Source: Stagnimonas sp. (GTDB taxonomy: Bacteria; Pseudomonadota; Gammaproteobacteria; Nevskiales; Nevskiaceae). Taken from it: a stretch of DNA of 38,953 nucleotides. Positions 26,621-38,876 of the stretch are shown in pieces (the first letter of the stretch is position 1; each line of letters begins with the position of its first letter). The stretch lies in assembly GCA_030652575.1 (NCBI GenBank), contig JAUSQI010000157.1, positions 1 through 38,953 of the forward strand, written 5' to 3'. A model generated the notes under the pieces. The model saw nothing but the letters and a program-made list of their open reading frames with translations, was not told the origin of the DNA and searched no databases. The translations under genes were made by a program, and so were the position numbers.

Positions 26621-26650
26621 TTGGCGGCATGTATTGTGCGCGTCTATTTT
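26621..26650 (+). promoter_or_regulatory. weak candidate promoter for the propeller protein
   Basis: TTGGCG (26621-26626) and TATTTT (26645-26650) are 18 bp apart in a notably A/T-richer gap. Each matches 4/6 of the sigma-70 elements. The following T-rich stretch to about 26657 would be the start region. Confidence 0.25.
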
Positions 26651-26699: not shown

Positions 26700-26705
26700 G
26701 AAGGA
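26700..26705 (+). promoter_or_regulatory. ribosome binding site fixing the propeller-protein start
   Basis: GAAGGA lies seven bases before the ATG at 26713. It favours the start with a signal sequence over the ATG at 26629. Confidence 0.65.
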
Positions 26706-26712
26706 ATCTCTC

Positions 26713-29700
26713 ATGCGTCTTGTCTCTTTTGCGCCTGCGGCCAGCGTGTTCGCGGTCGTCACCGCCGTGGTCGGCGGCATCGCCCTGTCGCCTCAGTCCT
26801 ATACCGAAGCCAGCCTGCGCGCGCTCGGCCAGGCTTGCCCCGCAGGCTACCAGCAGGTGGATGCCGTGCTGTTCGCGCAGGAATACCGCCCCGGCATGAC
26901 CCAGGCCGAGCGCGACGGCCTGAAGGCGAAGTATCCCAACCCGATCTGCATCTCCAAGAAGAGCCCGGAGTCGCTGACCGAGTTCACCCAGATGCAAACC
27001 GCCCGCAGCGAGGCGCGCGGCGCGCCGGTGGTGGGTGGCCTGCGTGCGGCGGTGGCGCAGAAAAACGAGATGAAGGCGCTGCAAGCCAAGGTCGACAACG
27101 CCGACGCCGCCTGGACCCCGTTCGGCACCGGGCCGATGATCGGCGACGGTGAGGATTTCCCCGAGGTCAACGGCCAGGGCTTCAGCAATCTGGCCGGTCG
27201 CGCCGATCAATTTGCCTACGATGCCGTCAACAAGCGCCTGTTCGTCGCCATCGGCAACGGCGGTATCTGGATGAGCACCGCGCCGGATGGCGACGTCAGC
27301 CAGATGGGCACCGCCGCCGCACCCTGGGTGTCGGTGGGTGACCGCCTGCCGTCGCTGGTGACCAGCGGTGTCGGCTTCACCACTGCGGGTGGTCGGACGA
27401 CCGATGGTGCACTCGGCGGCACGTTGATCGCGCTGACCGGTGAGCACTCGCAGGGCGGCAACACCTACATCGGCCTGGGCGCGTACTGGTCGAACGACTT
27501 GGGTGCGACCTGGAATGCCGCCACCGGCGTGCCGGATGGCGCGCTGGGCTTCAAGGTGGAGACCGACCCCAGCAATCCGATGGTGGTCTATCTCGCCACC
27601 GGCAAGGGCTTGTTCCGCAGCGCCGACGCCGGCCGCAGCTACGCCAACGTGGCACTCCCCGTCACCGCCGAGTGTGCCGGGGTCGATGGCGTCAACAAGA
27701 AGTTCCCCGGCGCCACATCCAGCGAAGGCATGGGCCCCTGCGTGATTGCCAACATCGTCACCGACGTGGTGGTGAAGCATCCCGGCGGCTCGACGGACGA
27801 GGCGGGTGGCCAGGTACTGGCCGCGGTTGGTTATCGCGGCGGCAATGCGCCCTTCCTCGACGGCACGCCGCAGTCACCCGGCAATGGCCTTTATCGCTCC
27901 GACACCGGCGCGCCCGGCACCTTCACCAAGCTCGATGTCTCCGGCACCGGTAGCGGCTCCGCCGGCTTCACGCCGCAGGATCGCATCGGCCGCATCGAGT
28001 TCGGCGTGGCGACCGGGCCCGAGCAGGACCACAACTTCGTCTACGCCATCGTGCAGGACGCCGTGCTCCTCAACGGCGGCCTCGCCGTGCCGTTCGGCCT
28101 GCCGGGTGTGGACGACGTGGTTGCTGGCCTGTCGGAGCTCGATTGCTCGATGCTGCCGGAGGGCGACCCCCAGTTCATCTGCGAAACCCTGCAGGGCGGT
28201 GCGCAGCTGGGTGCGACCACCATCAACGGCGTGTTCGTGTCGTCCGATTTCGGCGACAGCTGGACGCGAATGGCCGACACCACCGAACTGGCGCTGCTGC
28301 CCACCACCGGCTCTTCGCTGATCGTGCCCGCGGCCCTGGGCGTTGGCCCCGGCGTGCAGTCCTGGTATGACCTCTGGATGGCTGTGGACCCGACCCGCGT
28401 CAGCGCGTTGCTCGCCGGCGTGCCGACCCGCATCGGCTTCGGCATGGAAGAGGTCTGGCAAAACCGCCTCCCCGCCATCCCGCAGGACGGCAGCACTCAG
28501 GGTGTGGGTCTGCTCGACTTCGCGGTGATCGGCCCCTACTTCTCGGGTGACCGCTGCCAGCTGTTGATCGGCTCGGCCACGCCGGGTATTCCGGTCTGCG
28601 TTACCGACACCAACCCGGTCGATGTCGATGGCCGTGTCACCACCCACCCTGACCAACAGGCCGGCATCTATGTGCCTACCGCGGACGGCGGCGTCTGCCT
28701 GTTCGCGGGCGGCGACGGCGGCGTGTTCACCCAGTGCGTCGGTGCCAACGAGGAGATGGACAACACCAAGTGGGTCGACTCCTCCAACATCGGCTTCCAC
28801 ACGCTGTTCCACTACGGCTTTGCCGTGGCCAAGGACGGCACGGTGTGGTTCGGCAACCAGGACAACGGCTCGGGCAAGATCACGCCCGAGGGCGAGACCT
28901 TCCAGACCTACGTCGGCGACGGCGTATTCGCGCTGGTGGACCCGGACGACAGCAACGTCGCCTATGTCGAAACCCCGGGATTGAGTCTGCAGCTCACCAC
29001 CGATGGCGGCACCACCTACAGCGCCATCGCGCCGCCCGCGACCAACCCGTACTTCGCGTCCATGCTCATCATGGACCCGACCGACAAGAACCACATCATC
29101 ACCGGCGGCACCGAGATCTTCGAGACCGTGCTGGGCAGCGAGACGACCGCCGACAGCTGGGTGGAGGTCTTCAACCTCGGCACCGGACCTGATGGTGCGA
29201 TCCGCAACATGCGTTCGGTCGATACCCACGGCAAGACTTCCTATGCAGCCTTCTGCGGGCCGTGCAGCCCGTTGGTCGCCGCCGGCTTCCAGCGCGGCCT
29301 GGCCACCAACGCCGGTGCCGCCGATGCCGACAAGGCCAGCCCCAACGGCTGGCGCTTTGCCGCCGCCAACGGCCTGCCCAACCGCTACATCACCTGGATC
29401 GAGATCGACCCGGCCGACACCACCGGCAAGACGGTCTACGTGACGCTCGCCGGTTATTCGCTCGCCAAGTGGCTGCCGCCCGGCATGTTCCTGGATGACG
29501 CAGCCCGCCGCGCAGCTGCGATGGTGGGCGCGGGCAACCTCTGGATGTCGACCGATGGCGGCGAGAACTTCACCAACGTCTCCGGCAACCTGGCCGATTC
29601 GGTGGCCTATTTCACAACGCTTTACAAGCGCGGCAGCCAGCTGTTCCTGGGCACCGAGATCGGCGCGTTCGTCGCCGATGCACCGCGCCCCGGCACGCAG

Positions 29701-29979
29701 CCGGTGTGGGCGCCGATGGGCACGGGCCTGCCGAATGTGGTCATCACCCAGTTCCAGACCCAGCCGGGCAACGACAACAAGCTCTACGTCTCCACCTTCG
29801 GGCGCGGCATGTGGACGTATCCGCTGAAGGCCGTGACCGATGTGCCCGTCATCACGCCGGTGCCGCCCGTGAATGGCGGCAGCGGCGCCGGGCAGGGCCG
29901 CTTCGGTGGCGGTGTCTTCGGTTGGGCAGCACTCTCGCTGCTGGGCCTTGCGGCGCTGCGCCGTCGTCGTCTGCACTGA
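26713..29979 (+). CDS. large exported Asp-box beta-propeller protein with GlyGly-CTERM-like tail
   Basis: This is a 1088-residue protein of unknown function. An N-terminal hydrophobic export segment (about residues 8-26) is followed by a short cysteine-containing region to about 130. A long series of BNR/Asp-box repeats comes next, with S-x-D-x-G-x-T/S-W/Y/F turns at about residues 259 (SNDLGATW), 303 (SADAGRSY), 510 (SSDFGDSW), 762 (TTDGGTTY) and 945 (STDGGENF). This spacing suggests one or two large propellers of the sortilin/sialidase-like type. No sialidase active-site set was recognised. The end, residues about 1062-1088, is GRFGGGVFGWAALSLLGLAA followed by four Arg. It has a Gly-rich motif, a hydrophobic helix and a basic end, the layout of GlyGly-CTERM signals cut by rhombosortase. 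It is monocistronic, between murU and a strong terminator. Surface anchoring or secretion is expected; enzyme, adhesin or sensor roles are all open. Confidence 0.8.
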   Translation: MRLVSFAPAASVFAVVTAVVGGIALSPQSYTEASLRALGQACPAGYQQVDAVLFAQEYRPGMTQAERDGLKAKYPNPICISKKSPESLTEFTQMQTARSEARGAPVVGGLRAAVAQKNEMKALQAKVDNADAAWTPFGTGPMIGDGEDFPEVNGQGFSNLAGRADQFAYDAVNKRLFVAIGNGGIWMSTAPDGDVSQMGTAAAPWVSVGDRLPSLVTSGVGFTTAGGRTTDGALGGTLIALTGEHSQGGNTYIGLGAYWSNDLGATWNAATGVPDGALGFKVETDPSNPMVVYLATGKGLFRSADAGRSYANVALPVTAECAGVDGVNKKFPGATSSEGMGPCVIANIVTDVVVKHPGGSTDEAGGQVLAAVGYRGGNAPFLDGTPQSPGNGLYRSDTGAPGTFTKLDVSGTGSGSAGFTPQDRIGRIEFGVATGPEQDHNFVYAIVQDAVLLNGGLAVPFGLPGVDDVVAGLSELDCSMLPEGDPQFICETLQGGAQLGATTINGVFVSSDFGDSWTRMADTTELALLPTTGSSLIVPAALGVGPGVQSWYDLWMAVDPTRVSALLAGVPTRIGFGMEEVWQNRLPAIPQDGSTQGVGLLDFAVIGPYFSGDRCQLLIGSATPGIPVCVTDTNPVDVDGRVTTHPDQQAGIYVPTADGGVCLFAGGDGGVFTQCVGANEEMDNTKWVDSSNIGFHTLFHYGFAVAKDGTVWFGNQDNGSGKITPEGETFQTYVGDGVFALVDPDDSNVAYVETPGLSLQLTTDGGTTYSAIAPPATNPYFASMLIMDPTDKNHIITGGTEIFETVLGSETTADSWVEVFNLGTGPDGAIRNMRSVDTHGKTSYAAFCGPCSPLVAAGFQRGLATNAGAADADKASPNGWRFAAANGLPNRYITWIEIDPADTTGKTVYVTLAGYSLAKWLPPGMFLDDAARRAAAMVGAGNLWMSTDGGENFTNVSGNLADSVAYFTTLYKRGSQLFLGTEIGAFVADAPRPGTQPVWAPMGTGLPNVVITQFQTQPGNDNKLYVSTFGRGMWTYPLKAVTDVPVITPVPPVNGGSGAGQGRFGGGVFGWAALSLLGLAALRRRRLH

Positions 29980-29993
29980 GCTGAACCGTGCTG

Positions 29994-30026
29994 CAAAAAC
30001 GCCCCCGAATATCGGGGGCGTTTTTG
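29994..30026. terminator. very strong rho-independent terminator
   Basis: Fifteen bases at 29994-30008 (CAAAAACGCCCCCGA) pair perfectly with 30012-30026 around an ATA loop, with a five-T run in the right arm. The symmetry (A5 on the left, T5 on the right) allows function in both directions. It ends the propeller-protein transcript. Confidence 0.93.
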
Positions 30027-30083: not shown

Positions 30084-30491
30084 ATGTCCAGCACCGCCAT
30101 CCAGCTGCAAAAATCCCCGCAAGGCAAGCTTGCCTTCACCGTCAAGGTCGGCCGCAATGCCTTCACGGCGGATGTCTCCGAAGCACTCGGCGGTGACGAC
30201 CTTGGCCCTGATCCGCATGATCTGCTCGATGCCTCGCTGGGTGCCTGCACCGCGCTGACGGTGCTGATGGTGGCAGCCCGCAAGCAGATACCGGTCGACG
30301 ACATCCAGGTGTCGATCACCCATACCGAAGCCGAGGGGCTCTACACCCTCAACCGCACCATCCGTTTCATCGGCAAGCTCAGCGACGAGCAGCGCGATTA
30401 CCTACTGGGCATCGCCAACAAGTGCCCGATCCACAAGGCTATGCACGGGCGCTTCGAGGTCGTCACGGTTCTGGCCGCACCCAGCGCCTAG
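30084..30491 (+). CDS. OsmC/Ohr-family protein
   Basis: This 135-residue small cytoplasmic protein belongs to the OsmC superfamily of thiol peroxidases for organic hydroperoxides. The two expected cysteines are present: the peroxidatic C55 in LGACTALTV and C114 in NKCPIHKAM. The N-terminal strand pattern and HDLLDASLGAC are typical. It is closer to the YhfA/general OsmC-like subgroup than to true Ohr by length and the NKCPIHK block, so the exact substrate is uncertain. The gene begins just after a strong terminator, so it has its own promoter, not identified. It precedes the alpha-2-macroglobulin gene by 50 bp. Confidence 0.88.
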   Translation: MSSTAIQLQKSPQGKLAFTVKVGRNAFTADVSEALGGDDLGPDPHDLLDASLGACTALTVLMVAARKQIPVDDIQVSITHTEAEGLYTLNRTIRFIGKLSDEQRDYLLGIANKCPIHKAMHGRFEVVTVLAAPSA

Positions 30492-30541
30492 AATCAGTGC
30501 GGGCCGCTGGCTGGCGGCAACGAGAGACAAAAAAGGAACCC

Positions 30542-33500
30542 ATGCGCGCTCTGCAAGCCATCTGGACGGTCATCTGCGGCATCTTCATCGGCCTGGCGGA
30601 TTTCTTCGGCACCGTGCTGGGTGGCTTCTTCGGCGCACCCACCACCTGGCAGCCGCCCGCGTGGTGGCAGACGTTCGTTTCGCCCGTGGTCGCGCAGTGC
30701 CACAGGCTGGCGGCACACATCCGCGCCAATCCGGCGCGCGCTTCGCTGGCAGCGACCATCGCACTGGTGTTGATCGGTAGCAGCGTCATCGGCTGGCGTT
30801 GGTGGCAGGCGCGGCCGCAAGCCGAAACCGTGGCCTTTACCGTCACCGCCCCCGAGCGCACCTGTTACGAGTGCGAGCAGGAAGGCGACCGCGGCCCCAA
30901 GCCGCTGACGGTGCGCTTCGAGAAATCCGTGGCACCGATCGAGGCCGTGGGCAAGGATCTACCGGCCGATAAAAAGCCGCTGACCCTGATGCCCGCGCAG
31001 CCCGGCATCTGGCACTGGGACGACGACAGGACGCTGCGCTTCCAGCCGTCGCAGGACTGGCCGGTGGGTGGCAAGTTCGCGGTCGATTTCGCACGCAAGC
31101 ATTTCGTTGCACCGCAAATCCTGCTGAAGGACTACCGCTTCGAGTTCGCCACCGTGCCGTTCACGGTGACGCTACAGGACGTGCAGTTCGACCAGGACCC
31201 GGTGAACGCGGCCAACAAGACCGGCGTGGCGACGCTGCGCTTCAGCCATCCGCCGGACACCGCCAGCGTCGAGTCGCGGCTGAGCCTGAAGTATTTCGAC
31301 AAGCTCACGGATGACAAAGAAGTCGAGCGTGATGCGCCCGCCTACACGCTCAACTTCGACGCCAAGAAATTGCAGGCCTACCTGCGCACGGCCTCGTTGA
31401 CCATGCCCAGCAAAGAGGGCCGCATCGTGCTCAGCGGCACGGCGGGCATGAAGTCCGCACTCGGCGGCCCCGCCACCAGCAGCGCGCTCGACGCGACCAT
31501 CAAGGTGCCCGGCCGCTATGCCCTCGCCGTCAACGAACTCAGCGCCCGCATCGCACGCGATGTGGATGAAGGGCCGGTGCAACTGCTGACGCTTGCGCTG
31601 ACGCATTCGACCACCGAAGACGAGGTGAAACAACACACGCAGGCCTGGCTGCTGCCGCTGAAAAATCCCGATGAAAAAAAGCAGGCCGAGTTCGAGAAGT
31701 CCATCGAGAATTTCAACGGCCAGCCCTACCCCTGGGGCAGCGAGCAGGTGGGCGAGGCGGTGTTGAAGGCCGCGACCAGGCTGCCGCTCACCCTCAACGC
31801 GCTGGAGACCGATCACGGCGAGGTGCACAGCTTCAACCATCAGGCCGAACCCCAGCGCTGGATGGCGGTGCGGGTGTCTGCCGGGATGAAATCCTTCGGC
31901 GGCTACGAGCTGGAGAAATCCAGCGAGCTGGTGATGCAGGTGCCGGACTATCCCGCCGAGCTGCGGCTGGTCGGCAAGGGCGCCTTGCTGGCCATGAGCG
32001 GTCAGAAAAAACTCAGCGTGTTCACCCGAGACCTGCCCGGCATCAAGGTGGATGTGGGCCGCGTGCTGCCGGGGCAATTGCAGCATCTGATCACCCAAAG
32101 CGGCGGTGCGCTCGATGCCCTGAGCTGGAACGGCTACAGCTTTGACGAGAGCAACATCACCGAGCATCTCGACAAGGTCATCACCCTGCCCGGCGCGCCG
32201 CGTGGGCAGGCGCAATACACCACGCTCGATCTCGCACCCTTCCTCGCCGAAGGGGCCGAGAGCAAGCGCGGCATTTTCTTCGTCAAGCTGCGCGGCTACG
32301 ACCCGAAGACGCAGAACTTCATCGACGCGCCCTTCCAGTCAGAAGGCGAGGGCAGTGGCTACGAGGCCAGCACCGCCGACACGCGCCTGATCGTCGTCAC
32401 CGACCTCGGCCTGGTCATCAAACGCAACAAGGATCAAAGCCGCGAAGTGTTCGTGCAGTCGCTTGCCGGCGGCACGGCGATGGAGGGTGTGACGCTCGAT
32501 GTGATCGGCAAGAACGGCCAGGTCGTGCTGTCGCGCACCACCGATAACCAAGGCCACGCGCAGCTGCCGGACCTGAAGGGCTATCGCAACGAGCGCCAGC
32601 CCGTACTGCTGCTGGCGCGCAAGGGCGGCGATCAATCCTTTCTGCCGCTCGACTGGCGCATGAGCGGGCTCGACCTCTCGCGCTTCGATGTGGGTGGCGT
32701 ATCGCAGGCGGTCGAGCCCGGCGCGCTGTCGGCGTTTCTGTTCAGTGATCGCGGTCTGTATCGGCCCGGCGAGCTGGCGCACTTCGGTGTGATCGTGCGG
32801 GCGGCCGAGTTCAGCAAGTCGCTGCCGCAATCGCCGCTCGACTACGAAATCACCGATCCCAAGGGCACACGCGTCTGGCAGGCTCGCCGCGAGCTGCCGG
32901 CCAGCGGCTTCGACGAGCTGCAATTCGCCAGCCGCGAGACGTCGCCCACCGGCACCTACACGCTCGCCGTCTACCTGCCGCAGAAGAACACGCGGCTGCT
33001 GTTGGGCACGGTGGATTTCAGCGTGCGCGAGTTCCAGCCAGACCGCCTCAAGCTCAACCTCACCTTTAGCGAAGCACGCGCGCAAGGCTGGGTGAAACCC
33101 GATGCCTTGGCTGCGAACATCGATCTGCAAAACCTGTTCGGCACGCCCGCGCAAAACCGCCGCGTCACCGCCGAGATGCGGCTGTCGCCCTGGTTCCCGG
33201 CGTTTGCCGGCTTCGAGGATTACCAGTTCAGTGACCCGCAGGCGGCGAAGGAGGGCTTCACCGAATCCCTCACCGAGGCGACCACCGGCGAAGACGGCAA
33301 GGCCGTGCTTGATCTGGGTCTGCAACGCTTCGCCAAGGCGACCTATCGCGTGGCGCTGACGACGCAGGGCTTCGAGCCCGATGGTGGTCGCGGCGTTACC
33401 GCAGCCGCTGCTCAAGTCGTCAGCAACCTGCCGTATCTGGTGGGCTGGAAGGCCGATGGCGATCTCGGCTACGTCAGCCGCAACGGCGAGCGCAGTGTTG

Positions 33501-36500
33501 CCCTTGTGGCCTTGAGCCCCGAGGCCAAGCGCACCGCCGTGAGTGGCTTGAAGCTGCAACGCTTCGAGCGCAAGTTCGTCAGCGTGCTGGTGCGGCGCGA
33601 CAACGGCACCTATCAATACGAGTCGCGGCAGAAGGACGTGCCGCTGTCGGATATCGCGCTCAACATCGCAGCGACCGGCAGCGCGCTGAAGCCCGATGCG
33701 AGCAATCCCGGCAGCTTTTTCTATCTCGTCACCGATGCCGAAGGGCAGGTGTTCGCGCGCATCGCCTACACCGTCGCCGGTGCGGGCAACGTCAGTCGCA
33801 GCTTGGAGAAAAACGCCGAGCTGCAAATCGCGCTCTCGAAAAAGGATTACGCCCCCGGCGAAGAGATCGAGCTGAGTCTGGTCGCGCCCTATGCGGGTGC
33901 GGGCCTCATCACCATCGAGCGCGAAAAGGTGCTGAGCTGGCAGTGGTTCACGTCGGCGACGACGGCGAGCGTGCAGAAAATCAAAGTGCCGGAGGGCCTC
34001 GAAGGCTCGGCCTATGTGCACGTGGTCTTTCTGCGCGACCCGGCCAGCGACGAAGTGCACACCAGCCCGATGAGCTATGGCGTCGCCCCCTTCTCGGTCG
34101 CGCTCGACGCCCGCCGCGCCACACTCACCGTGGAGGCGCAGAACAAACTCAAACCTGGCGAAACACTGCGCATGAAAGTGACGGCATCGAAGCCCGGCAA
34201 AGCCGTGGTCTACGCCGTCGATGAGGGCATTCTGCAGGTCGCCCGCTACACGCCGCCGAAGCCGCTGGAGTTCTTCTTCCAGAAGCGCAGCCTCGACGTC
34301 GACACCTTGCAGATTCTCGATCTGCTGCTGCCGGAGTTCCGCGCGATGGGCATTGGCAGTGCTGCCGGTGGCGACGCCGATGGCGCGCTCGGCAAGCATC
34401 TGAATCCCTTCCGCCGCAAAACCGACCCGCCGATTGCTTGGTGGAGCGGCGTGATTGACGTGGGCCCTGAAGCCAAAGAGCTGACTTGGCTGGTGCCCGA
34501 AAGCTTCAACGGCACGCTGCGGCTGATGGCGGTGAGTGTGGATGCCAATGCGATTGGCACCAGTGAGGGCAAGGCACTGGTGCGCGGTGATTTCACGCTG
34601 CTGCCCAATGCGCCGCTGGCAGTGGCACCGGGCGATGAGTTCGAGGTGAGCACGGGCGTCTCCAACAATCTGGAGACGGGCGCGAAAGACATGCCGGTGC
34701 AAGTCACGCTGCTGCCGTCGGCCAATCTCGAAGTGATTGGGCCGACGGCACAAACGCTCGCCATCGGCCCGCAGCACGAGGGCGTGGCGCGTTATCGCGT
34801 GCGCGCGAAAGACGCCCCCGGAGCTGGCTCGCTGGCTTTCACTGCGAAGGCCGGCAGCGCGGGTGCCAAGCTCACGACGACGCTCTCGGTCAGACCAGCC
34901 ACGCCCTACCGCATGCAGCTCACGGCGGCGAGTGTGAAGGCCGAATCCACCGTGGATCTCGCGGTGACGCGCAGCCTCTACCCGCACTTCCGCACGCTCG
35001 AAGCTTCGGTATCGCCCTTGCCACTCTCGCTGGCGAATGGCCTCACGGCTTATCTCGACAGCTACGAATACGCCTGCACCGAGCAGCTGGTGAGCATGGC
35101 GGTGCCGGCGCTGGTGCTGAGTGATCGACCGGAGTTCGGCGCGCTCAAGAAAAGCAAGAACGCGAGCTTCGAGGCCTTGTTCACCGAACTGGCCACGCGC
35201 CAGCGCAGCGACGGCGACTATCGCCTGTGGCCGAACGGTGCGGGGGCCGAGTTCGTGTCGATCTACGCCCAGCACTTCCTCATCGAAGCCGCCGAGCGCG
35301 GCAAGGCGCCGCCGGGCGACTTGATGACCAACGGCAACAACTACCTGATGCAGCTGGCGCGGCGTGACGGCGACTCCATCGAGCAGGAGCGCAACGCGGC
35401 GTATGCGATCTACCTGCTGACGCGCCAGGGCGAGGTGATGTCGGCCGAGGCCGATGCGCTGCGCACAAGGCTTGAGAAAAACTGGAAGGGCAAATGGGAG
35501 CAGGACGCGACGGCCGCCTGGCTCGCTGCCACCTACTCGCGCATGCAGCAGAAACCGCTGGCCGAAAAGCTCATTGCCCGCGTGAAGCTCGGCGGCACGC
35601 ACGCTTACGACCGCTATCACAGCCCGATGGCGACCGATGCCGAGCTGCTCTACGTGCTGGCCAAGCACTTCCCCGATCGTCTGCAAGCCTTTGGGCCGGT
35701 GTTTGTCGAGAGTCTGGTGAAGCGGCTGACGGCGGGTGAGTACCACTCGTTGTCTGCGGCGACCAGCATCCTCGCACTCGATGCCTATGCCAGCGTTGCA
35801 CAAGGCGATGCCGCCAAACTGACGCTCGCCGAAGTGCTGAAAAACGGCAGCAGCAAGCCGCTCACACTTCCCGAAGGCTTGTTCCCCAAAACAGCGTTCA
35901 GTGAAGCCGCCACCAAGCTGCGCGTGGGCAACCCCAACAAGTTGCCGGCGTATGCGCTGCTCACCGAAAGCGGTTTTGATCGCACGCCGCCTGCCAAGGC
36001 CGTGGTCAACGGCTTTGAGATTCTGCGCGAATACACCGACATCAGCGGCAAGCCGGTCACGCAAGTTAAACTGGGCGACGAGGTGGACGTGCATGTGAAG
36101 TTCCGTGCCGTCGGCCGCGCATACATCAACGATGCAGCACTAGTCGATTTGCTGCCCGGCGGCTTCGAGATTGTGCAGCCGGCGCCGGTCACTGCGGAGC
36201 AGCAGATGCAGCAGGCTGTGCCTGAGCCAGTCGAAGAAGGCAGCGAAGAGACCGGCGAAGCCGCCACTGAAGCCGAGGTGGAAGGCGGTGCCAGCTGCGG
36301 CTGCGACTGGGTGACTTTCATCAGCGGCAACGCACTCACCTACGCCGACTACCGCGAAGACCGCGCCGTGCTCTACGTCGATATCGACGACCGCGTGGGC
36401 GAAGTGAAATACCGCATGAAGGCCGTGGCCGCCGGCAGCTTCACCATCCCGCCCGCGTATGGCGAGGCGATGTATGACCGCAGCGTGTTTGGACGCAGTG

Positions 36501-36532
36501 CGCCCGGCCGTATCGAGGTGGTGAAGCCTTGA
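30542..36532 (+). CDS. membrane-anchored bacterial alpha-2-macroglobulin
   Basis: This 1996-residue periplasmic protease-trapping protein is larger than E. coli YfhM (about 1650). A hydrophobic segment (about 6-31) and a clear TM span (about 66-87) anchor it to the inner membrane, unlike the lipoprotein anchor of YfhM. The macroglobulin-like domains run to about 1200. The thioester domain carries YACTEQL with CTEQ at 1512-1515, so covalent trapping is probably intact. After about residue 1895 come an acidic Glu-rich stretch and a CGC pair (C1919, C1921). A CYEC pair (C108, C111) lies just after the TM span. AAGGAA at 30533-30538 supports the ATG at 30542. It is followed after 16 bp by pbpC, the classic partner thought to repair peptidoglycan after envelope attack. 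Confidence 0.93.
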   Translation: MRALQAIWTVICGIFIGLADFFGTVLGGFFGAPTTWQPPAWWQTFVSPVVAQCHRLAAHIRANPARASLAATIALVLIGSSVIGWRWWQARPQAETVAFTVTAPERTCYECEQEGDRGPKPLTVRFEKSVAPIEAVGKDLPADKKPLTLMPAQPGIWHWDDDRTLRFQPSQDWPVGGKFAVDFARKHFVAPQILLKDYRFEFATVPFTVTLQDVQFDQDPVNAANKTGVATLRFSHPPDTASVESRLSLKYFDKLTDDKEVERDAPAYTLNFDAKKLQAYLRTASLTMPSKEGRIVLSGTAGMKSALGGPATSSALDATIKVPGRYALAVNELSARIARDVDEGPVQLLTLALTHSTTEDEVKQHTQAWLLPLKNPDEKKQAEFEKSIENFNGQPYPWGSEQVGEAVLKAATRLPLTLNALETDHGEVHSFNHQAEPQRWMAVRVSAGMKSFGGYELEKSSELVMQVPDYPAELRLVGKGALLAMSGQKKLSVFTRDLPGIKVDVGRVLPGQLQHLITQSGGALDALSWNGYSFDESNITEHLDKVITLPGAPRGQAQYTTLDLAPFLAEGAESKRGIFFVKLRGYDPKTQNFIDAPFQSEGEGSGYEASTADTRLIVVTDLGLVIKRNKDQSREVFVQSLAGGTAMEGVTLDVIGKNGQVVLSRTTDNQGHAQLPDLKGYRNERQPVLLLARKGGDQSFLPLDWRMSGLDLSRFDVGGVSQAVEPGALSAFLFSDRGLYRPGELAHFGVIVRAAEFSKSLPQSPLDYEITDPKGTRVWQARRELPASGFDELQFASRETSPTGTYTLAVYLPQKNTRLLLGTVDFSVREFQPDRLKLNLTFSEARAQGWVKPDALAANIDLQNLFGTPAQNRRVTAEMRLSPWFPAFAGFEDYQFSDPQAAKEGFTESLTEATTGEDGKAVLDLGLQRFAKATYRVALTTQGFEPDGGRGVTAAAAQVVSNLPYLVGWKADGDLGYVSRNGERSVALVALSPEAKRTAVSGLKLQRFERKFVSVLVRRDNGTYQYESRQKDVPLSDIALNIAATGSALKPDASNPGSFFYLVTDAEGQVFARIAYTVAGAGNVSRSLEKNAELQIALSKKDYAPGEEIELSLVAPYAGAGLITIEREKVLSWQWFTSATTASVQKIKVPEGLEGSAYVHVVFLRDPASDEVHTSPMSYGVAPFSVALDARRATLTVEAQNKLKPGETLRMKVTASKPGKAVVYAVDEGILQVARYTPPKPLEFFFQKRSLDVDTLQILDLLLPEFRAMGIGSAAGGDADGALGKHLNPFRRKTDPPIAWWSGVIDVGPEAKELTWLVPESFNGTLRLMAVSVDANAIGTSEGKALVRGDFTLLPNAPLAVAPGDEFEVSTGVSNNLETGAKDMPVQVTLLPSANLEVIGPTAQTLAIGPQHEGVARYRVRAKDAPGAGSLAFTAKAGSAGAKLTTTLSVRPATPYRMQLTAASVKAESTVDLAVTRSLYPHFRTLEASVSPLPLSLANGLTAYLDSYEYACTEQLVSMAVPALVLSDRPEFGALKKSKNASFEALFTELATRQRSDGDYRLWPNGAGAEFVSIYAQHFLIEAAERGKAPPGDLMTNGNNYLMQLARRDGDSIEQERNAAYAIYLLTRQGEVMSAEADALRTRLEKNWKGKWEQDATAAWLAATYSRMQQKPLAEKLIARVKLGGTHAYDRYHSPMATDAELLYVLAKHFPDRLQAFGPVFVESLVKRLTAGEYHSLSAATSILALDAYASVAQGDAAKLTLAEVLKNGSSKPLTLPEGLFPKTAFSEAATKLRVGNPNKLPAYALLTESGFDRTPPAKAVVNGFEILREYTDISGKPVTQVKLGDEVDVHVKFRAVGRAYINDAALVDLLPGGFEIVQPAPVTAEQQMQQAVPEPVEEGSEETGEAATEAEVEGGASCGCDWVTFISGNALTYADYREDRAVLYVDIDDRVGEVKYRMKAVAAGSFTIPPAYGEAMYDRSVFGRSAPGRIEVVKP

Positions 36533-36548
36533 GAGATCAGCTGGGGTG

Positions 36549-38876
36549 ATGCCCGCGCCGCTGCGTCGATGGCTGCGCGGCATCGCCGCCGTGTTGGCGG
36601 TGCTGGCCGCAGCACTGTTGCTGCTGCGCCTCTGGCCGCATGCGGCGCTGCGCGACCGCATCCCCCTCAGCACCGTGGTGCTGGATCGACACGGTGCCGT
36701 GCTGCGCATCACGCTCGCCAGCGATGCCCAGCTGCGTTTGTGGACGCCACTCGACCAACTGCCGCAGCCCTTGATTGACGCGGTGCTGCTGCACGAAGAC
36801 CAGCATTTCTTCCGGCATCCGGGCGTGAATGCGGTCGCGCTGCTGCGGGCCGCTGTGACCACGGCCAGCGGCGGGCCAACGCTGGGTGCTTCCACCATCA
36901 CCATGCAGCTCGCGCGGTTGTTGCAGCAGCGCAACACTCGCAGCATCGGCGGCAAGCTGGCGCAGATCGGCGACGCGTTGTGGCTGGAGGCGCGCTACAG
37001 CAAGCGCGAGATTCTGGAGGCCTACCTCAACGCCGCACCCTACGGCGGCAACCTGCAAGGCGTGGGTGCGGCGGCGCGGCTTTACTTTGGCAAGGCACCG
37101 CGTGAGCTTGATCTTGCGCAGACGCTCGCGCTTGCCGTGCTGCCGCAAGCGCCCGGCACGCGCACGCCGCGCGGGGTGGAGGGCGACAGCCTGCGCGCTG
37201 CGCGCCTGCGCCTGTTCGCGCGCTGGCGGGCAGCGCACCCAGAGTCCGCTGCGCAAGCCGCACTCGTCGAACGGCCACTGCGATTTGCGCGCGCCACACC
37301 GCCGTTTGAAGCGCCGCATTTCACCACCCTGGTGCTACGCGAGCGTGCTGAAACCGAGCAACACACCACGCTGGATTTGCGCCTGCAAAAGCTGCTGGAA
37401 CGCCGCCTCAAAAGCCACCTCGCCGTGACCAGCCGCGAGGGTGTGAACAACGCCAGCGTGCTGCTGCTCGATACCCGCGACATGGGCGTGCGCGCCTGGC
37501 TCGGCTCCGCCAATTTCTTCGATGCCCGCATCGAAGGCCAAGTGGATGGCCTGCTCGCGCGCCGCTCACCCGGCAGCACGCTCAAGCCGCTGCTGTATGC
37601 GCTGGCAATCGATCAGGGCCTCATCCATCCGCTCACCGTGCTCAAGGATGCACCCAGCTATTTCGGCCCCTACGCGCCAGAGAACAACGACGGCAGTTTC
37701 CTTGGCCCCATCACCGCGCACGATGCCTTGATCCGCTCGCGCAACGTGCCGGCCGTGCAACTCGCCGCGCGCCTGCAAAGCCCAACGCTGTATCGCTTCT
37801 TGAAGAACGCGGGCGTGGCACTGCCCAAAAGCGAGCGGCATTACGGCCTGGCACTCACGCTGGGCGGCGGCGAGGTGTCGCCGGTGGAACTCGCGCAGCT
37901 CTACGCGATGCTGGCCAATCGCGGCGTATTCAAGCCGCTGCAAATCACTGCGAATGCGGCAGTGGCTGATGCGCCGCGCCTGCTCAGCGAAGAAGCCAGC
38001 TTCATGGTGATGGACATCCTGCGCGACAACCCGCGCCCCGACGAAGTGCTGTGGCGGCCGTCGCGCAACCGCATCACGCCCGCGTGGAAAACCGGCACCA
38101 GCTGGGGCTTTCGCGATGCCTGGACGGCGGGCGTGATCGGCCCGTATGTGCTGGTCGTGTGGATGGGCAATTTCGATGGTCGTGCCAATCCCGCGCTGGT
38201 CGGCCTGCACACCGCAGCGCCCTTGTTTTTCGACCTCGCCGACGCCCTGCGCACGGCTGATCCAGACATGGCCGAGCCGATCTTCAGCAACCCACCGCGC
38301 CTCGCCAAAGTGCAGGTCTGCGCCGCCAGCGGCGACCTGCCCAATGTCGACTGCCCGCAGCGCGCGACGACGTGGTTCATCCCCGGCGTGTCGCCGATCA
38401 AGCTCAGCGAAGTGCATCGCCGCGTACGCGTCGATACCCGCACGGGCCGCATCGCCTGCGCCGATGCGCCCGAGAGCGTGGTGAGCGAGGCGGTTTACGA
38501 ATACTGGCCGAGTGACCTCATGCGGCTGTTCGCGCAAGCGGGCATCCCGCGCCGCAAACCGCCCGTTGCGGGTGATTGCCGTAGCGCCAGCCCGGCCAGC
38601 GCCGTGCGCCCGCCGCAAATTGTCTCGCCCATTGCAGGCGTGAGCTACGTGCTGAGGCCCGCCGAACTGGGCGTGAAAACCCTGCCGCTGCAAGCCCACG
38701 CCGATGCCGCCACCCGTGCGCTCTACTGGTTTGCCGATGGCGCGTATCTGGGCAGCAGCGCGCCCGGCGTGGCCTTTGCCTATGCGCCCTCGCATGCGGG
38801 CCGCGTGCAGCTCACGGTAAGTGACGAACGCGGCGGCAGCGATGCGCGGGCGTTGATCGTGCGCTTGGGGGAGTGA
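36549..38876 (+). CDS. pbpC: penicillin-binding protein 1C
   Basis: This 775-residue bifunctional peptidoglycan synthase is anchored by an N-terminal TM span (about 10-28). The glycosyltransferase (GT51) domain shows EDQHFF with E83 and GASTITMQ at 113-120. The transpeptidase domain has SxxK at S343-K346 (SPGSTLKP), SxN at S397-N399 and KTGTS at 514-518, all intact. The C-terminal approximately 90 residues form the biPBP_C domain found in PBP1C. The ATG at 36549 follows a GTG at 36546; GGGG just before is a poor ribosome site, so translation may be coupled to the upstream alpha-2-macroglobulin gene 16 bp away. Confidence 0.96.
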   Translation: MPAPLRRWLRGIAAVLAVLAAALLLLRLWPHAALRDRIPLSTVVLDRHGAVLRITLASDAQLRLWTPLDQLPQPLIDAVLLHEDQHFFRHPGVNAVALLRAAVTTASGGPTLGASTITMQLARLLQQRNTRSIGGKLAQIGDALWLEARYSKREILEAYLNAAPYGGNLQGVGAAARLYFGKAPRELDLAQTLALAVLPQAPGTRTPRGVEGDSLRAARLRLFARWRAAHPESAAQAALVERPLRFARATPPFEAPHFTTLVLRERAETEQHTTLDLRLQKLLERRLKSHLAVTSREGVNNASVLLLDTRDMGVRAWLGSANFFDARIEGQVDGLLARRSPGSTLKPLLYALAIDQGLIHPLTVLKDAPSYFGPYAPENNDGSFLGPITAHDALIRSRNVPAVQLAARLQSPTLYRFLKNAGVALPKSERHYGLALTLGGGEVSPVELAQLYAMLANRGVFKPLQITANAAVADAPRLLSEEASFMVMDILRDNPRPDEVLWRPSRNRITPAWKTGTSWGFRDAWTAGVIGPYVLVVWMGNFDGRANPALVGLHTAAPLFFDLADALRTADPDMAEPIFSNPPRLAKVQVCAASGDLPNVDCPQRATTWFIPGVSPIKLSEVHRRVRVDTRTGRIACADAPESVVSEAVYEYWPSDLMRLFAQAGIPRRKPPVAGDCRSASPASAVRPPQIVSPIAGVSYVLRPAELGVKTLPLQAHADAATRALYWFADGAYLGSSAPGVAFAYAPSHAGRVQLTVSDERGGSDARALIVRLGE

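Follow-up and report, generated by a model that had tools for sequence, protein, structure and literature searches.

The closest described counterparts of the system considered here are those in which a GlyGly-CTERM tail (model TIGR03501) is processed by a rhombosortase (TIGR03902), an intramembrane protease whose native substrates are known as a class. In the case of VesB of Vibrio cholerae, the rhombosortase cut leaves the second Gly at the C-terminus, linked to a glycerophosphoethanolamine-containing moiety, after which the type II secretion system (T2SS) exports the protein to the surface (PMC6219818). The GlyGly-CTERM signal together with its processing is reported to suffice for membrane association, while translocation across the outer membrane requires a second signal (PMC13393428). 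Work on how rhombosortase selects its signal is continuing (PMC11389362, PMC13393428). Here we describe a gene found in a 38,953-nucleotide stretch of DNA from Stagnimonas sp. (Gammaproteobacteria, Nevskiales; assembly GCA_030652575.1, contig JAUSQI010000157.1, positions 1 to 38,953 of the forward strand; hereafter the window), which encodes a protein of 1088 residues, P0001 (26713-29979, plus strand, stop codon included). We consider it probable that P0001 is an exported Asp-box propeller that is clipped by rhombosortase, carried to the surface by the T2SS and tethered there to act as a polymer receptor or a polymer-directed enzyme.

The extreme C-terminus of P0001 (29896-29976) has the tripartite layout that characterizes GlyGly-CTERM. 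It consists of a GRFGG signature, which family comparison identifies as the genus form of the GlyGly motif (residues 1062-1066, 29896-29910), a stretch of 16 mostly hydrophobic residues, GVFGWAALSLLGLAAL (1067-1082, 29911-29958), and the basic end RRRRLH (1083-1088, 29959-29976), in agreement with an earlier, sequence-only reading of this DNA that had described a Gly-rich, hydrophobic and Arg-rich tail. A Pro/Gly/Ser-rich linker of 20 residues (1042-1061, 29836-29895), a region that varies among family members, joins the propeller to the tail. At the other end of the protein, residues 1-25 (26713-26787) form a hydrophobic N-terminus, MRLVSFAPAASVFAVVTAVVGGIAL, that resembles a signal peptide when judged by eye.

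The other hallmark of GlyGly-CTERM, a tail common to otherwise unrelated proteins within one genome, is found here as well. The curated TIGR03501 model locates one place in the entire Stagnimonas genome, against 13 at E 0.01 for a profile built on 21 tails of the genus (A2); since the curated model misses P0001 and finds one site instead of 13, the tail repertoire of this lineage has probably been under-counted. A Pfam scan of ten tail proteins of the genome, which left out the A2 match on contig C131 (L098), returned two M4 thermolysins, two M36 fungalysins, an S8 subtilase, a PNGaseA, another propeller and three proteins without a match, so that the search for further GlyGly-CTERM-type proteins proposed by the sequence-only reading had a positive outcome. 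A 987-residue protein with a GRFGG tail (L027:7297-10257, G000:C100) has no Pfam match at E 0.01.

A second tail profile was built with the P0001 family left out. Forty-four other tail-bearing proteins of the genus fell into 10 groups when their sequences, tails excluded, were clustered by BLAST; one tail per group went into the profile, which was run on 1202 open reading frames (ORFs; 1051 of them distinct) from the first 44 loci. P0001 scored 28.4 bits with this profile. A training duplicate aside, the best ORFs belonging neither to the family nor to the training set reached 22.2, 13.3, 12.3 and 12.0 bits, all of them tail proteins, and the best ORF without a visible tail reached 9.7 bits. 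The ORF at 12.0 bits ends in a GRYGG tail newly recognised by the profile. At L033:13301-15940, an 880-residue ORF has a GRYGG tail in which Arg-Arg precedes a longer and partly acidic end. From these comparisons the tail reads as a shared signal, not as a private anchor.

The enzyme expected to process such a signal is encoded in the same genome, on contig 117 (G000:C117:12245-12739), and the condition on which the earlier reading had staked its interpretation thus turned out in its favour. The TIGR03902 match scores 110.3 bits at the DNA level and 113.9 at the protein level (cut-off 84), and is the single match in the genome even at E 10. Relative to GlpG of Escherichia coli K-12, the equivalents of the catalytic Ser201 and His254 and those of His150 and Asn154 are kept, and a His occupies the position of Tyr205, which is described as a key feature of rhombosortases (PMC3237569). 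The gene is divergent from gspG, beyond which follow gspH, I, J, K and L; the products of these six genes exceed their NCBIfam cut-offs, a GspM-like gene stays under its own, and GspD is found elsewhere in the genome with 560 bits. This back-to-back arrangement, which through gene order links sorting with type II secretion, recurs at all 32 rhombosortase loci fetched from Nevskiales (44 relatives are over the cut-off). Among 40 other gammaproteobacterial loci, chosen mostly from the top of 126 genomes over the cut-off, gspG is a divergent neighbour at 11 (E 1e-15, within ~1.5 kb). The 2011 study found nothing to suggest that rhombosortase is the mark of one T2SS subclass (PMC3237569), and a narrow literature search, which included portions of PMC3237569, PMC10128026 and PMC5300114, yielded no description of the rhombosortase-gspG pairing.

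Taken together, we propose the following course of events. P0001 would be exported to the periplasm by its N-terminal signal, would fold as an Asp-box propeller and would be kept in the inner membrane by its tail, whose GlyGly-CTERM-type architecture is observed. By analogy with VesB of V. cholerae, rhombosortase would then remove the tail by cutting at the GG of GRFGG or immediately behind it, and a lipid-type group would be attached to the C-terminus thus exposed. The T2SS would carry the protein to the outer surface. Tethered there, it would function as a receptor or as an enzyme, with an extracellular polymer, most likely a glycan, as its target; it would be one of four paralogues alongside like-tailed M4, M36 and S8 proteases, a repertoire that is itself observed. 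We have moderate confidence that the ligand would be an extracellular glycan or polymer. The earlier proposal of a rhombosortase-processed surface protein gains support from the presence of the enzyme, from the occurrence of the tail on unrelated proteins and from its recognition by a profile free of the family, with cleavage and surface location argued from VesB.

The passenger that the tail would deliver is a predicted Asp-box propeller of roughly residues 130-1041 (27100-29835), as delimited by its Asp boxes, by Pfam Sortilin-Vps10 and by alignment with a Streptomyces homologue. Five Asp boxes lie at residues 260, 303, 510, 762 and 946, which bears out the claim of at least five Asp-box turns; in 2000 shuffles of P0001 the number of boxes averaged 0.18 and never exceeded 3, so that none reached five. 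Of the 32 aligned family members, 18 have four boxes, 11 have five and three have six. P0001 passes the gathering cut-off of Sortilin-Vps10 (PF15902; 37.5 bits against 33, with a best stretch of 63 residues), and all 32 members match this model at E 0.01. Sortilin-Vps10 is a ten-bladed propeller.

The P0001 propeller has a THPDQ motif (residues 644-648, 28642-28656) in which H645, D647 and Q648 are invariant across the 32-member alignment, a GGDGG motif (666-670, 28708-28722) with an invariant D668, and an invariant QDN motif (716-718, 28858-28866). Seven residues, H645, D647, Q648, D668, D717, N718 and D736, are the same in every member, and because they are acidic or polar a binding or active site is likely. 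The previous statement that no enzymatic site is recognisable has to be qualified in this respect. C848 and C851 are also invariant in the 32 members; they delimit a CGPC motif in P0001 (residues 848-851, 29254-29265) and in the Streptomyces homologue (L208). The motif resembles that of thioredoxin but sits in a propeller, where it probably forms a disulfide.

Whether the passenger binds or cleaves its polymer bears on a first alternative, in which P0001 is a true glycosidase of the tandem-propeller kind, similar to GH74, and not a binding protein. GH74 xyloglucanases have two seven-bladed propellers and paired catalytic Asp residues. A profile search of solved structures recovered the Asp-box repeats of the BNR protein 3b7f, chains of the GH74 type (among them 6p2k, 6p2n and 7kn8, E 1e-8 to 7e-8) and, marginally, the dispase autolysis-inducing protein (DAIP). 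The cluster of invariant acidic residues would suit a glycosidase, and NF045728, the 'F510_1955 family glycosylhydrolase', matches all 32 members; however, the structure matches span Asp-box repeats only, and P0001 scores 57.7 bits against an NF045728 cut-off of 175. We regard a glycosidase of this kind as possible but doubtful.

AlphaFold2 (AF2) models, each computed with a five-sequence alignment of proteins from the window and related loci, have a mean predicted local distance difference test score (pLDDT) of 33.4 for the full length and 43.1 for residues 502-1041, the latter being the only model used in structure searches. Foldseek placed DAIP, YCF48, sortilin and GH74 among its first ten matches, with TM below 0.5, and VIA-align put LRP6 and other propellers on top (Z 12.9-14.7). 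Structure prediction, which had been suggested as a means of counting blades, provided propeller-like fold matches for this one low-scoring model but no blade number. DAIP, the top Foldseek match of the 502-1041 model (E 7.4e-8, TM 0.26 and 0.36), also appears marginally in the profile search (E 0.06). Since thermolysin-type M4 proteases of this genome bear the same kind of tail, P0001 might be imagined as a surface-tethered protease modulator acting, like DAIP, on the like-tailed M4 and M36 proteases. We find this improbable, because the underlying model is poor (mean pLDDT 43.1), YCF48, sortilin and GH74 follow closely in Foldseek, and VIA-align ranks other propellers first.

P0001 belongs to a Nevskiales family. 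The Stagnimonas genome holds four paralogues, P0001 and three more, and full-length relatives occur in 16 of 61 genomes, its own included; a seventeenth (G033) matches in the tail only. In the class sample, two of 369 genomes match at 1e-10, namely this one and one of the same order, and with the family profile at 1e-15 the phylum sample gives two of 299, this one and another that matches over 154 profile positions only. From A3 we left out L017 and L018, which are cut at locus ends (L044 is a full copy of L017), as well as short fragments and loci that were already represented, L023 and L024 being duplicates of L032 and L035. A rhombosortase over the cut-off is present in 15 of the 16 family-bearing genomes versus 29 of the 45 others (Fisher p 0.03, kinship ignored). 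A mobile origin of the gene was considered and set aside: no P0001 match was found among 50,697 phage records, none was confirmed in viral contigs, and no PADLOC family matched at E 0.001.

Among 72,556 plasmid records there was one match, a Streptomyces plasmid homologue with 28% identity over residues 502-1041. It keeps THSDQ, GNDGG, QDNG and CGPC and stops right after the propeller, without a tail. Since this homologue ends where the propeller ends, the tail of P0001 appears as an add-on, which the passenger probably predates. The family is in this respect like other GlyGly-CTERM families, for which members with and without the suffix have been described (PMC3237569).

Several observations weigh against the proposed reading of P0001. 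The protein falls below the curated TIGR03501 cut-off (8.6 against 15.5 bits), and 7 of the 32 family members match that model at E 1. In one of the family-bearing genomes, G048 (88% complete), no rhombosortase exceeds the cut-off. L101, one of the ten training proteins of the family-free profile, also matches Sortilin-Vps10 and, as P0001 matches the same Pfam model, may be a remote relative. What points to a glycan is distant Asp-box similarity alone, and the AF2 models have the low scores given above. The authors of TIGR03501 state that their model cannot detect all true examples exhaustively (PMC3237569). Because its cut-off is missed, we call the P0001 tail a variant form of GlyGly-CTERM and not a scored member.

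The missed cut-off would also be compatible with a plain transmembrane anchor at the C-terminus that escapes cleavage altogether, P0001 then staying in the inner membrane and facing the periplasm. We consider this unlikely, given that like tails, often including GRFGG and an Arg cluster, occur on unrelated enzymes of the genus, that a rhombosortase is encoded in the same genome, and that the Streptomyces homologue has no such anchor. It is far less probable still that a different sorting enzyme recognises the tail, either a myxosortase (MYXO-CTERM) or an exosortase-type system. The MYXO-CTERM model (TIGR03382) does give P0001 9.1 bits, slightly more than the GlyGly-CTERM model, but 9.1 bits is short of the MYXO-CTERM cut-off of 15.85. 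Moreover, the MYXO-CTERM signature always has a Cys (PMC3237569) and residues 1062-1088 have none, for which reason we reject a MYXO-CTERM identity. None of the exosortase-type tail models matched P0001 at E 10, although IPTL-CTERM (best E 0.05) and VPLPA-CTERM (0.08) each had a match in a single family member, and the genome was not searched for myxosortase or exosortase genes. We retain the reading of the tail as a variant rhombosortase signal.

Within the family, this variant is confined to the genus. The pattern G[RSH][FYL]GG is present in the tails of all 21 Stagnimonas members among the 32 aligned proteins and in none of the 11 from other genera, and these members were picked by propeller homology, not by their tails. 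With the A2 profile, 57 of 67 matches within the genus start with the G of GRF, which is position 1 of the profile, versus one of 36 outside it; in the class sample, among the matches listed, this Stagnimonas genome alone has matches that start there. The protease of the genus is also distinctive. In all five Stagnimonas species compared, rhombosortase carries an insertion of 13 residues between the positions corresponding to GlpG F146 and S147, with the consensus PGNTxxWxGxxFH and one Glu in each species, which is found in none of 70 other aligned rhombosortases (30 from other Nevskiales, 40 from other members of the class). In two species of another genus, the rhombosortases L135 (G025) and L209 (G725) are long because of an insertion in the 11-residue range that lies elsewhere, after a GLVPQ segment.

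In GlpG, a bound inhibitor has its P4 side chain packed against F146 and M120, two residues of loop L1 (PMC5746060), and this loop has been described as an S4 subsite (PMC12955534). Provided that cleavage follows GG, as it does in VesB, GRFGG would place Phe at P3 and Arg at P4. Because the insertion sits beside the equivalent of the GlpG residue that packs on P4, we tentatively suggest, as a minority possibility, that substrate signature and protease changed together, the 13-residue loop reading the Arg-Phe of the GRFGG tail. If true, nature would here have re-coded the specificity of an intramembrane protease. Many unrelated substrates sharing one altered signature, and an enzyme with one discrete insertion at a known subsite, offer a direct test of recognition.

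We do not accept such a lock-and-key pairing as established. Tails with RFGG occur in another genus (G032) as GRFGGA (L072) and ERERFGGAL (L213) without the insertion, and G036 combines a GRFGSG tail with a rhombosortase that lacks it, which leaves the pairing unproven. Within Stagnimonas, the Arg-Phe form is absent from 8 of 44 non-family tails; its presence in the other 36 is inflated, since these proteins were found mostly with A2, which was itself built on 21 genus tails of the GRFGG kind. The insertion may stem from one evolutionary event, so that the counts of insertion and signature are not independent. An ordinary rhombosortase may, in addition, accept a bulky P3, as substitutions at P3 of VesB gave activities of 79% for Tyr, 180% for Trp and 123% for Lys, with 4% for Phe and 2% for Arg (PMC11389362). 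A literature search returned no paper combining rhombosortase with GRFGG, and we regard the paired variation of sorting signal and protease loop within Stagnimonas as new.

The P0001 reading frame is uninterrupted across its 1088 codons. An alternative upstream ATG at 26629 would give 1116 residues, and the ATG at 26713 is preceded by AAGGA (26701-26705, plus strand), a likely ribosome-binding site. A simple scan returned no sigma-70-like promoter, with 0.2 expected. Downstream lies an intrinsic terminator (29995-30025, plus strand) in which an A-tract, a GC stem and a T-tract are arranged symmetrically with 14 bases paired; positions 29990-30035 fold with -30.9 kcal/mol (z -5.4), as expected from the strong terminator noted before, and a simple terminator scan overlooked this hairpin. 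The gene is flanked by an OsmC-like gene and by a nucleotidyl transferase gene, which we take to be MurU-like. The two longer sense ORFs of the window encode an alpha-2-macroglobulin (2036 residues) and a PAS-GGDEF-EAL protein (1152 residues), and the description of P0001 as the largest gene without an assignable role holds for the seven neighbouring ORFs scanned, a subset of the window. Downstream of the propeller and OsmC-like genes, 30422-38873 carries the bacterial alpha-2-macroglobulin followed by a transglycosylase/transpeptidase with a BiPBP_C domain.

Among 13 family loci with flanks, no gene cluster besides the P0001 family recurs at more than four, and most of the recurrences look like shared synteny of related genomes. 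The gene neighbourhood is uninformative on function. Cluster 2, whose gene we read as a putative MsrA, lies near family copies at three of the 13 loci (L025 on G000:C88, L026 on G000:C148 and L032 on G003:C2).

Comparison with known systems places P0001 closest to VesB-RssP of V. cholerae, the GlyGly-CTERM/rhombosortase pair, with which it shares a tripartite tail found on unrelated proteins, a rhombosortase and T2SS genes. Unlike VesB, which has SGGS (PMC11389362), it bears GRFGG, and unlike the typical pair it remains under the curated cut-off and is accompanied by a rhombosortase with a 13-residue insertion in L1. Lineage variants of GlyGly-CTERM have already been modelled as TIGR03867 (Ralstonia lineage), TIGR04179 and TIGR04212 (PMC5300114); they provide a precedent for lineage-specific signal forms and are not among the three families that P0001 matches at E 10. 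The three-part layout is also that of MYXO-CTERM/myxosortase, from which P0001 differs by a signature without Cys. Like Sortilin/Vps10, the BNR (Asp-box) propellers, GH74 xyloglucanases, DAIP and YCF48, P0001 has Asp-box repeats, and its alignments with these proteins span one or a few of them. The kind of sorting system and the kind of propeller are thus already known, and what is new is the variant of the system and the membership of P0001 in that kind of propeller.

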